Below, piece by piece: positions 35,350 to 39,690 of a DNA stretch of 61,887 nt; the stretch's first letter is position 1; the number at the start of each line of letters is the position of its first letter. The position numbers and the translations under genes were made by a program. The stretch is from Gammaproteobacteria bacterium. Lineage in GTDB: Bacteria; Pseudomonadota; Gammaproteobacteria; SZUA-229. The DNA lies in the NCBI GenBank assembly GCA_029881795.1, contig JAOULX010000018.1:1-61887 (forward strand), written 5' to 3'. The notes under the pieces are model-generated. The model saw only the letters and a list, made by a program, of their open reading frames with translations, was not told the DNA's origin and ran no database searches.

Positions 35350-36156
35350 ATGAACATTCATTTTGTAAAAACCCCTGCTACAATACACTGTATGGAAGAT
35401 TTCAAAAAAATACTGAAAGAGCTTGCGGACAACTACCTGGAAGCTTTGCCGGATACATTACATAATGTTGAGCTATTGTTAGTCAATTTTAAACAGCACG
35501 TATCAATTGAAAACTACCAGACACTGTTTCGTGAAATACACAGCATTAAAGGTTCCGCTGGTACACATAACTTTAGTTTTCTGTCGGCCATCTGCCACCA
35601 GTTTGAAGACGAGCTATCAGAACTATCTCCTTCCACTGGTGATATATCAGATCAGCAAGTCAATAACTGGCTCGCCTACATCGACCTGTTGATAGTAACC
35701 ACCGAGCTATACCAGCAACAAGAAGATAATTTCTCCAACTTAGAAGACAAACTCAACTTACTCAGAAGTCAGCACGGCAAGCACCATTACTCTTGCTTAC
35801 TGGTCGAGTCGGAAAGTAGCAGCACCAATATCGTTAAAAGCGCACTAGAAGCTCATTCATTTCAAGTGAGCCTTATGAATGACGGTTATCAGTCACTTGG
35901 TCGCTTGTTAACTGATAAATATGACTTGCTAATTACCGGTATGCATGTTGAAACATTAAATGGAGTCGGTCTTATTGGTGCTATTCGCTCTTCAACCTCA
36001 GTTAATAAAAAGATTCCTGCAATTTTGCTGACCTCAGGAAAATTCAATCGCAATATAAGGCAATCCGACCCTGACTATATCGTATATAAAGATAAAGACT
36101 TAATTGCGAATCTTGATGCGGCTATCAGTTCAGTTAAAGAAAACCACAAAAATTAA
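35350..36156 (+). CDS. Hpt domain protein with pseudo-receiver domain
   Basis: 268 residues, cytoplasmic. An N-terminal histidine-phosphotransfer domain carries IHSIKGSAG (phospho-His H64 when counted from this ATG). A C-terminal receiver-like domain (about residues 145-260) has lost the phospho-acceptor: LLITGMHVETLNG has Gly where Asp is expected, and only one acidic residue is left in LLVESESS. So it can receive a phosphate on His but the receiver is likely an unphosphorylated adaptor. Start is uncertain; ATG 35392 (MEDFKKIL) is close to the domain edge and neither has a clear ribosome site. A truncated paralogue lies downstream. Confidence 0.8.
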   Translation: MNIHFVKTPATIHCMEDFKKILKELADNYLEALPDTLHNVELLLVNFKQHVSIENYQTLFREIHSIKGSAGTHNFSFLSAICHQFEDELSELSPSTGDISDQQVNNWLAYIDLLIVTTELYQQQEDNFSNLEDKLNLLRSQHGKHHYSCLLVESESSSTNIVKSALEAHSFQVSLMNDGYQSLGRLLTDKYDLLITGMHVETLNGVGLIGAIRSSTSVNKKIPAILLTSGKFNRNIRQSDPDYIVYKDKDLIANLDAAISSVKENHKN

Positions 36157-36243
36157 TATTCTATAAAGAGATATATTTTGTTAGTTTTTTAGAATTTATC
36201 ATTTCTATATTTTATTAAATCAAAGTCAAAGTCATAGGTGATC
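36058..36243 (+). repeat. copy 1 of a duplicated 3' gene end plus downstream DNA
   Basis: The last 33 codons of the Hpt/pseudo-receiver gene and about 87 bp after it are repeated in diverged form at 37370-37556. Synonymous and conservative changes dominate in the coding part. Confidence 0.8.
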
Positions 36244-36633
36244 ATCCATTGTCTTTTTCTGGATTTCGTATCTCAAACCAACTTACGTGCTTACATGCTA
36301 TAACAAGGTGTCATAAACTTGCTCCGCTTAAGCATTCCGGTAGTCGCACCGGCGGGTGAGGCACTTTTTCCTACAGTTGAAGCTTCCGCATCCTGCTCAC
36401 GCCCCTTACCTACATCCATGTAGGCAAAAAAGTACCGTACTTGCATGTGTAGGAGACACGTTAATTAATTACGCGATAGCGCATATACTATCTATAAAAA
36501 CCGCCCTAACACAGCTTGCCCTGCGGATACCCTGCATCGTATTTTCAAACCTCTTTCTATATTAAATTCTTGAATTGTTTTAACCTCGCTAACGGGTCTT
36601 TTTTATTCGCTTCCCTGCTTAGCAAAACTAAAT
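36244..36633. other. non-coding region left of the inverted repeat element
   Basis: No convincing gene. A 69-codon frame at 36356-36565 has no ribosome site or family likeness. It contains a short palindromic patch around CATCCATGTAGG at about 36413-36424, but no terminator or RNA. Confidence 0.45.
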
Positions 36634-37310
36634 ACGCTTTTGACTTCGATCTTAATGTTTAACGGCTGTTCTAGTAAATTAAAATTAAAATAAAAGTCAA
36701 AAGCGTGGGTTCCCGCACCCACCGGCGTGTTCATTTTCTTTAGACGGATAAAGAAAACGAACCAAAAGAAATCCACCCAATTCACAAGCCTGTATATAAA
36801 GCATACAGGTTCCCTCATCTCTCCCTAAAAACAGGGCTGCTGCGGAACTCGCATAAACAGCATGCTCAGACAGCCACAGCAGAAAACTCCCTGCTTTTAA
36901 CTCGTTCTTCGGCTTGCTCAAATGGGAGGGGTAAATCAAAACCGATAAGGTCTGATATTTTTTGTCTTTTAATTTTAACTTACGACTTACGGCTTACGGC
37001 TTACGGCTTACGACTTACGACTTACGACTTACGACTTTTCTTTTGACTTTGACCCACCCTCCCATCTGAGCAAGCAGAGGAAGAAGTAATATTATCGGGG
37101 CTTTCTGCGAGGATGTCTGAGCGAGTGCTTTTCTCGCGAGTTCCGCAGCAGCCGAAAATATTGCGACTGACGAAGGTACCCTCATGCCTTATATGAGGGC
37201 TTGTTTAGCGGGGCGGCTTTCTTTTCGTTAGTTTTCTGTAGCTGTTGACAGAAAAGTGACCTGCTGTCGGTCAGCCACCGACGCCTTTGACTTTGATCTT
37301 AACATTTAAA
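36634..37310. repeat. long imperfect inverted repeat with central tandem array
   Basis: Left arm about 36690-36940 and right arm about 37050-37292 are imperfect reverse complements. Exact or near-exact blocks: 36835-36852 against 37136-37153 (18 bp identical) and 36905-36930 against 37057-37082. The end segment GCTTTTGACTTCGATCTTAA (36636 on) also recurs as a direct repeat at about 37284. Between the arms is the 7-bp array at 36979-37034. The arms hold no credible gene. This resembles high-copy repeats containing GCTGCGGAACTCGC seen in many beta- and gammaproteobacteria. Confidence 0.75.
36979..37034. repeat. eight-copy 7-bp tandem array
   Basis: Eight head-to-tail units of CTTACGA or CTTACGG (A, G, G, G, A, A, A, A in the last position) fill 56 bp exactly at the centre of the inverted repeat element. 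A two-state last base suggests local slippage after an initial variant. Confidence 0.95.
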
Positions 37311-37369
37311 AACCGTTGGACTTCGTTCCTCAGTCCAACCTACGAGCTGGAAAGTTTACCCGAAAAATA

Positions 37370-37468
37370 AGGCAATCGGACCCGGATTATATCGTACATA
37401 AAGACAAAGAATTAATTGCGAATCTTGAAACGGCTATTAGTTCAGTTAAAGAAAGTTACAATAATTAA
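37370..37468 (+). pseudogene. truncated paralogue of the Hpt/pseudo-receiver gene
   Basis: 32 codons plus stop read RQSDPDYIVHKDKELIANL and then ETAISSVKESYNN, matching the C-terminus of the gene at 35350-36156 with conservative changes only (Y/H, D/E, D/E, A/T, N/S, H/Y, K/N). The 5' part is absent; upstream sequence is the right end of the inverted repeat element. The similarity continues past the stop to about 37556. So a second paralogue once stood here and lost its front. Confidence 0.85.
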
Positions 37469-37608
37469 TATTTTATAAAGAGCGATATTCCCCTTAGCTT
37501 TTATAATTTATCATTACTATATTTTATTAAATCAAGGTCAATATGCAGGTGATTAATTTCAGAAACACGCCGCTCCTTGGCCCCGCGACATATGTATATG
37601 CCTACACA

Positions 37609-37631
37609 TAAAAAAGCCCGCATCAGCGGGC
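37609..37631 (-). terminator. thiC terminator
   Basis: GCCCGC, loop ATCA, GCGGGC (37616-37631) with an A run at 37609-37615 that is a T run on the minus strand. 10 bp past the thiC stop. It could also act on the plus strand. Confidence 0.9.
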
Positions 37632-37641
37632 CTTTTTAAAA

Positions 37642-39690
<2,049 letters not shown>

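Follow-up and report, generated by a model that had tools for sequence, protein, structure and literature searches.

A mosaic dispersed repeat of divergently paired structured units, related to TwoAYGGAY RNAs and possibly linked to CsrA, in gammaproteobacterial genomes

Introduction

A large imperfect inverted repeat lies between the 3' ends of a Hpt/receiver gene and thiC in a gammaproteobacterial contig of 61,887 nucleotides, the whole of which is referred to here as the window. The first-pass annotation described two inverted arms of about 250 bp around a tandem array and suggested a non-autonomous mobile unit, a recombination hot spot or a long structured RNA. Does the repeat act as one giant hairpin, or is it put together from smaller parts, and what might these do? 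On balance, and with moderate confidence, the locus is read here as a REP/BIME-like repeat of mosaic make-up, whose divergent units are structured RNAs that titrate CsrA.

Architecture of the repeat

The two inverted arms are present, with refined unit limits of 36691-36941 and 37047-37296. BLAST aligned 36685-36930 with 37057-37302 (69.9% over 249 columns). In the sequence itself the 18-bp block GGCTGCTGCGGAACTCGC (36835-36852) recurs without a mismatch, as reverse complement, at 37136-37153. Inner blocks noted earlier as near-identical were recovered as arms 36879-36930 and 37057-37108, 73% complementary over 52 nt, and the outer arms, 36685-36710 and 37277-37302, are 85% complementary over 26 nt. 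Between the 5' ends of the arms is a spacer, or apex, at 36942-37046, in which a repeat search found exactly eight plus-strand CTTACGA/G heptamers (CTTACGR) at 36979-37034, the number first reported. Folded as one DNA strand, 36676-37310 reached -121.6 kcal/mol against -70.4 +/- 4.9 for 20 dinucleotide shuffles (z -10.4). The interior is free of genes as had been stated; its sole open reading frame of at least 80 aa (36697-36939, minus strand, TTG start) has no Pfam match, and a coding reading of it was rejected on that ground. With the pieces outside the arms, the whole feature extends from about 36304 to 37343.

By sequence comparison each arm is one copy of a dispersed unit of about 250 bp, designated C, which in 41 aligned copies runs from TTTTGAYTTACCC to GCCTTTGACTTTGA. 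A covariance model of the C core (R1), trained on 27 copies with both window arms among them, matched the left unit (36691-36941, sense strand minus) at core 36776-36926 with 142.3 bits (E 1.2e-28) and the right unit (37047-37296, sense strand plus) at core 37061-37212 with 165.5 bits (E 6.4e-34). Both units are placed by the 27-copy alignment A1, the right one also by its fold. Toward the 3' end each unit has two hairpins. In the right unit P6 (37227-37260, plus) is helix 8 of A1 and belongs to a widely shared 3' module, and P7 (37265-37283, plus), also an A1 helix, is terminator-like in the sense direction. In the left unit P6 (36729-36762, minus) was located by inverted-repeat search and P7 (36705-36722, minus) is again terminator-like in sense. 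The P6 region of the right unit has matches of 46-59 bp at 83-91% identity in eight genomes from other genera of the same family (G012, G014, G015, G017, G019, G022, G023 and G024).

The expectation of a dispersed and likely structured RNA element, part of it widely spread, was upheld by genome searches and by the fold of C. A 677-bp query gave 26 matches in its own 2.93-Mb genome, where both arms' matches to one copy are counted separately, and matched 20 of the 40 genomes searched, its own included. With R1, C copies number 11 in the window's genome; over the 40 genomes there are 102 matches, spread over 15 genomes that again include its own. An exact C-core pattern recovered 26 stretches among named records, all of them gammaproteobacterial metagenome bins, and none in viral contigs; the plasmid search returned, besides one thiC match, just short P6 or S matches. 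A literal P6 pattern matched 7 of 369 genomes, the pattern being too strict. No Rfam family was matched by the whole window at gathering level or by unit C, and at E up to 5 the stretch 36200-37400 gave six rows, all far under gathering scores.

When the query took in 5 kb around the locus, two more dispersed pieces, A and B, appeared left of the arms. Together they make up a broken second unit, AB, at 36304-36640. Piece A (36304-36381, minus), delimited by the wider locus search and the composites, is the outer 3' part of AB, with one P6 arm and P7. Piece B (36496-36640, minus) is an AB remnant that keeps CAGGGAAG at 36617; at one end B has given way to the left C unit, and the first GGA hairpin is absent where C abuts. 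The order A-B-spacer-C recurs in 14 composites from G000 (the window's genome), G001, G002 and G003, and on the minus strand A-B forms a further type of unit, with a 3' module of the same kind as that of C, P6 followed by P7. Seven of these 14 also have, at the AB side, the C end (P7 side) in inverted form. Several composites are at orthologous sites (L045, L068 and L076). At one such site (L045 in G000, L068 in G002) the element is oppositely oriented in the two genomes, through inversion or independent insertion.

Two smaller modules complete the mosaic. S (36380-36434, minus) is inserted in the P6 loop of AB and carries a UACAUGGAUGUA hairpin, with CANGGANG at 36420, and GCAGGAUGC at 36395. 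It occupies the P6 loop of A-B in the window and that of C at L060, L063 and L077, and in all four placements it is GGA-sense relative to its host unit. D (37315-37343, minus), a GTAG-type REP-like hairpin, adjoins the outer end of the right C unit and is of the same type as REPs tabulated in the available text of PMC2817692. Beside P6 of AB (36436-36495) there is also an insertion, some 60 bp long, in which a palindrome resembles GCGCTATCGCG; the AB unit at L045 in the same genome has a similar one.

Conserved fold of the units

The consensus fold of C, from the 27 copies of A1, has 65 pairs, of which 28 show compensatory double changes. In this fold 97.2% of cells are paired, compared with 86.3% in shuffles and 39.2-42.1% when the structure is slid along the alignment. 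Covariation is 0.320 against 0.119 in shuffles and at most 0.063 when slid, and none of 500 shuffles reached it. A1 folds at -69.2, the mean of 30 column-shuffled alignments being -6.9. The 27 copies were chosen by hand from the 41 aligned units (same genus, without S or large insertions), a choice that favours a clean fold. A single right C unit as RNA is barely more stable than shuffles (z -1.7 plus, -1.5 minus), and the case for structure therefore rests on covariation.

The plus-sense fold of C is the stronger (-69.2 vs -44.5), and among 31 pairs predicted on both strands 13 are G-U and 3 A-C, a strand test that is only modest because alifold itself favours G-U. Folding of single-stranded DNA would likewise give strand-specific pairs. 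The local fold of C is evolutionarily conserved, probably in the form of RNA. An internal loop, UGUYUGA/GAG, is also conserved, for which a kink-turn was considered as a possible reading.

The consensus fold of AB was computed from 13 of the 14 composites, L068 being left out since its end is missing. It reaches -69.5, compared with -22.8 for column shuffles. The strands of AB are poorly separated, in folding (-69.5 vs -59.1), in G-U:A-C pairs (73:6 vs 68:8) and in pairs with double changes (8 of 66 sense, 9 of 62 antisense).

Relation to TwoAYGGAY and to CsrA

AB is related to TwoAYGGAY, Rfam family RF01731. An intact AB copy (L048, G000:C7:134631-134744), the single RF01731 match of the window's genome, covers model positions 1-168, with two AUGGAY loops, at 43.1 bits, just over the gathering score of 43. 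Six AB copies of G002 and G003 score 35.6-37.8 bits, under the cut-off. The broken AB of the window gave no RF01731 row at E up to 5 in 36200-37400 and thus lies under the 43-bit gathering score. For comparison with the AYGGAY loops, S in the window carries AUGGAU and AGGAU, and B carries AGGGAA; the right C unit has none. cmscan found RF01731 at L087 as a divergent pair, and at none of the eight other loci searched alongside it. Matches at E up to 0.001 occur in 16 of the 40 genomes, and nine pass the cut-off; none of 14 control genomes passes. P6 follows the TwoAYGGAY match in the same sense in 10 of the 20 loci returned and precedes it in none of the 20. In the available text of PMC4333381, TwoAYGGAY is proposed to bind CsrA, and tandem G-A pairs are reported. 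In a table in the accessible part of PMC2864571 it is entered as a probable RNA, with human gut, gammaproteobacteria and Clostridiales given for its occurrence. The Rfam clan of TwoAYGGAY also contains RsmV.

The motif CANGGANG is taken here to be the consensus of a CsrA-type site. It was counted in units found through P6 alone, replacing an earlier loop count on 12 units (13 GGA loops vs 1 TCC). In such related units the motif is in clear excess on the sense strand: sense to antisense, 18:1 in 28 distant units and 10:0 in 28 family units. L133 enters the same two sites twice in the distant count, which leaves 16 distinct sites, 13 of them in loops whose stem has three or more pairs. The carriers are 10 of the 28 distant and 7 of the 28 family units, the remaining 18 and 21 being without the motif. 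The reversed motif occurs 2 and 3 times, respectively. Among 60 letter orders CANGGANG ranks first in the distant set and third in the family set, where two other orders stand above it. The minus strand of the window has two such sites, 36420 in S and 36617 in B; a long stem forms only at 36420. The same strand also has GCAGGATGC, a shorter version, at 36395. Unit C has no CANGGANG site.

The gene csrA was found in 28 of the 40 genomes, that of the window included. It was not found in 12, among them G001, G002, G005, G014, G015 and G016. Of these 12, G001 has 10 C matches, and G015, which is 94% complete, has 24 TwoAYGGAY matches. Fragmentary assemblies may be the cause, though G005 is listed as 100% complete.

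Age and means of spread

Units occupy the same place in several species (L045/L076, L044/L066, L048/L075, L052/L072 and others). Units are present at thiC in G002, where the closest to the gene is 90% identical to the left arm of the window and oppositely oriented; the thiC locus of G003 has none in the stretch examined. One G003 element of about 780 bp is absent from G002, where 57 bp stand in its place. These shared sites, together with the one presence/absence difference, indicate that units are inserted or lost, but slowly. Plain insertion was considered and found unsupported: neither a target duplication, at the single empty site examined, nor a cognate transposase was found, and several copies are at the same place across species. 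RAYT (PF01797) appears an unlikely mobiliser, no link with copy number having been seen. It has four matches in G000, one of them under the cut-off, and none in G001 or G002 despite their many copies (G002 is 68% complete).

Two side observations concern other genomes. In a Pseudoalteromonas record (L195, NZ_CP142031.1) an ISAs1-family element bounded by 34-bp inverted ends carries an S-like module at 1501-1553, placed between one of these ends and the transposase gene; cmscan reported no RF01731 on this record. The S-like stretch occurs in four Pseudoalteromonas plasmid records, of which L195 alone was examined closely, and the ISAs1-family element is a possible vehicle. At L170 (G072) two P6 hairpins about 1.6 kb apart enclose a 317-aa SH3_3 and SNase gene (1164-2117), as if it were captured cargo.

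Could the repeat be MITE- or REP-like non-autonomous mobile DNA, with hairpins that serve single-strand recognition by an HUH-type or other transposase and GGA loops that have no RNA role? The copies are dispersed and mosaic, half of the composites have the inverted C end at the AB side, and one site free of the element is known in G002. The S-like sequence inside the ISAs1-family element, the REP D beside several copies and the SH3/SNase gene between unit halves are in line with the same idea. Against it, the copies are old, with several sites common to species, and a search for RAYT gave nothing in the copy-rich G001 or in G002, likewise copy-rich but incomplete. No target duplication was visible at the sole empty site examined, that in G002, where the intergenic DNA is too diverged. 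Finally, the bias of GGA over TCC tracks the sense strand. This explanation is regarded as possible though rather doubtful.

Divergent pairing at gene ends

Neighbouring C matches within 600 bp form divergent pairs in 14 of 15 cases, the sole convergent case falling between two pairs at thiC in G002. The 24 TwoAYGGAY matches in G015 make eight neighbour pairs, all eight divergent. In distant gammaproteobacteria, four pairs with P6 outward at both ends (G149, G033 and G136) span about 420-600 bp. The literature listings searched showed no publication on this divergent-pair repeat arrangement.

Flanking genes were scored mechanically, as open reading frames of at least 90 aa, at 27 of the 29 sites on the list; L067 and L073 have a flank on one side only. 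The flanks are convergent at 12 sites, tandem at 15 and divergent at none, with orthologues among the sites (L043/L058, L045/L076, L048/L075, L052/L072 and L044/L066). In the stretch 36150-37650 of the window there are two sigma-70-like promoter matches, outside the spacer 36942-37046 and not above chance, and seven terminator-like sites vs 1.4 +/- 1.1 expected, P7 of both arms in sense included. On the far side of the element, at about 37349-37541, lies a duplicate of about 36035-36229, which takes in the 3' end of the Hpt/receiver gene (gene limits 35350-36156) with the DNA downstream of it; the element is thus situated between the gene end and a truncated second copy of it.

The absence of divergent flanks among the 27 sites and the excess of terminator-like sites would also fit an element of transcription termination, bulky gene-end hairpins that halt or shield transcripts in the manner of REPs, with no binding of CsrA. 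A conserved structure that far exceeds the needs of a terminator, internal loops that are conserved as well, and the GGA bias make this unlikely.

CsrA titration by divergent structured RNA units, the reading preferred here, would work as follows. The building blocks are structured units of about 250-330 nt in divergent pairs, their 5' ends meeting at a variable spacer and their 3' ends outermost, where P6 and P7, the hairpins common to them, and a TTTGACTTTGAT end are found. In the window AB, S and the left C have their sense on the minus strand and the right C on the plus strand. The units are proposed to act as RNA. Transcription would enter from a neighbouring gene, and from either side the far unit would be read in sense, ending at P7. 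The AB and S hairpins would bind CsrA, and would either titrate it or tie these 3' ends to CsrA, with C, which has no CANGGANG site, as a structured partner. Insertion sequences may have carried the activity by which copies spread, and recombination around P6 and P7 would have reshuffled them.

With the pairs located at the 3' ends of genes, transcripts entering from either flank would yield one sense unit, and tens of loci would then amount to a distributed CsrA sponge. Tentatively, this repeat class may spread divergent-pair RNA units, the CsrA-binding TwoAYGGAY type and the unnamed C, through many gammaproteobacterial genomes as such a sponge. If true, the sponge would evolve by insertion and module exchange.

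The giant hairpin and the heptamer array

The first reading of the arms had them form one very long arm, as RNA or as extruded DNA. Arm identity does not support this as the form that functions. Among five C/C pairs from the same genus, the two arms of one locus are on average 0.771 identical, vs 0.809 when a left arm is compared with the right arm of another locus, and 112 of 120 permutations reach the observed within-locus mean. L044 and L082 (unusable alignments of 12 and 1 columns) and L084 (other genus) were dropped from this test. An earlier version, in which eight pairs were listed and six permuted (L044 included), gave 0.782 within, 0.819 between and 676 of 720. Arms of the same locus are no more alike than those of different loci; there is thus no sign that the giant hairpin was selected. 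An RNA with both arms prefers the long hairpin (-240.3 vs -191.4 kcal/mol for a fold with pairs limited to 280 nt), and in this model it would mask the local folds.

A giant hairpin or cruciform acting as a recombination hot spot or as one long RNA is very improbable: the whole repeat folds strongly as a single DNA strand, a full-length RNA favours the long hairpin and several relatives' contigs end in or near such repeats, but the arms are no better matched at their own locus, the compensatory changes are local, and AB/C composites join two unlike types of unit. However striking an inverted repeat is, selection need not act on it as a single hairpin; here it acts on the local units.

The heptamer array had been taken as part of the element, which it appears not to be. 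CTTACGA arrays stand alone at two other places in the same genome and also in relatives. Only two of 23 other spacers (L065 and L078) have three or more exact tandem 7-mers, of other sequence. The array between the arms thus has the look of an independent embellishment. Some C copies start with TTTTGACTTACC, which contains GACTTAC, and slippage at the C start is on this ground a plausible origin of the array. Free-standing arrays of GACTTAC, GACTTTG or GACCTAA units, several copies per genome, were seen at L080 (G002:C52), L079, L081, L049 and L050.

Comparison with known systems

CsrB/RsmZ-type sRNAs sequester CsrA. The likeness to the units described here is that of GGA sites in hairpin loops, and the claim is limited to working alike. 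In contrast to CsrB/RsmZ, there are many scattered copies in divergent pairs with few sites per copy, and no promoter was found.

REP/BIME elements with RAYT, as described in the available text of PMC2817692, share with this repeat the dispersal, the intergenic inverted doublets with a spacer, the mosaic make-up and the compensatory changes. The C unit differs from them as a structure of about 250 nt with several helices, several times longer than the tagged palindrome of 20-40 nt, and the GTAG/CGTC tag is absent from the unit itself; D alone has GTAG. Scattered intergenic arrays of a single 7-mer are likewise found among the TAACTGA heptamer repeats of Beggiatoaceae, according to the accessible part of PMC4679880; here the 7-mer is another one (GACTTAC), and in the window it lies inside the spacer of a pair.

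The closest known system is TwoAYGGAY. RF01731 and AB have in common two hairpins with AYGGAY loops; its matches in G015 are in divergent pairs, and P6 comes after 10 of 20. C in contrast lacks AYGGAY loops and any Rfam match, and the AB of the window is cut by S and the left C. A divergent-pair repeat architecture is not mentioned in the available parts of PMC4333381 and PMC2864571. TwoAYGGAY RNAs have been listed as orphan candidates since 2010, the CsrA hypothesis being added later. The divergent-pair repeat gives them a genomic context, with a repeat family, a 3' module, a partner RNA, C, and a location at gene ends, and it makes the idea of a CsrA sponge testable at many loci.
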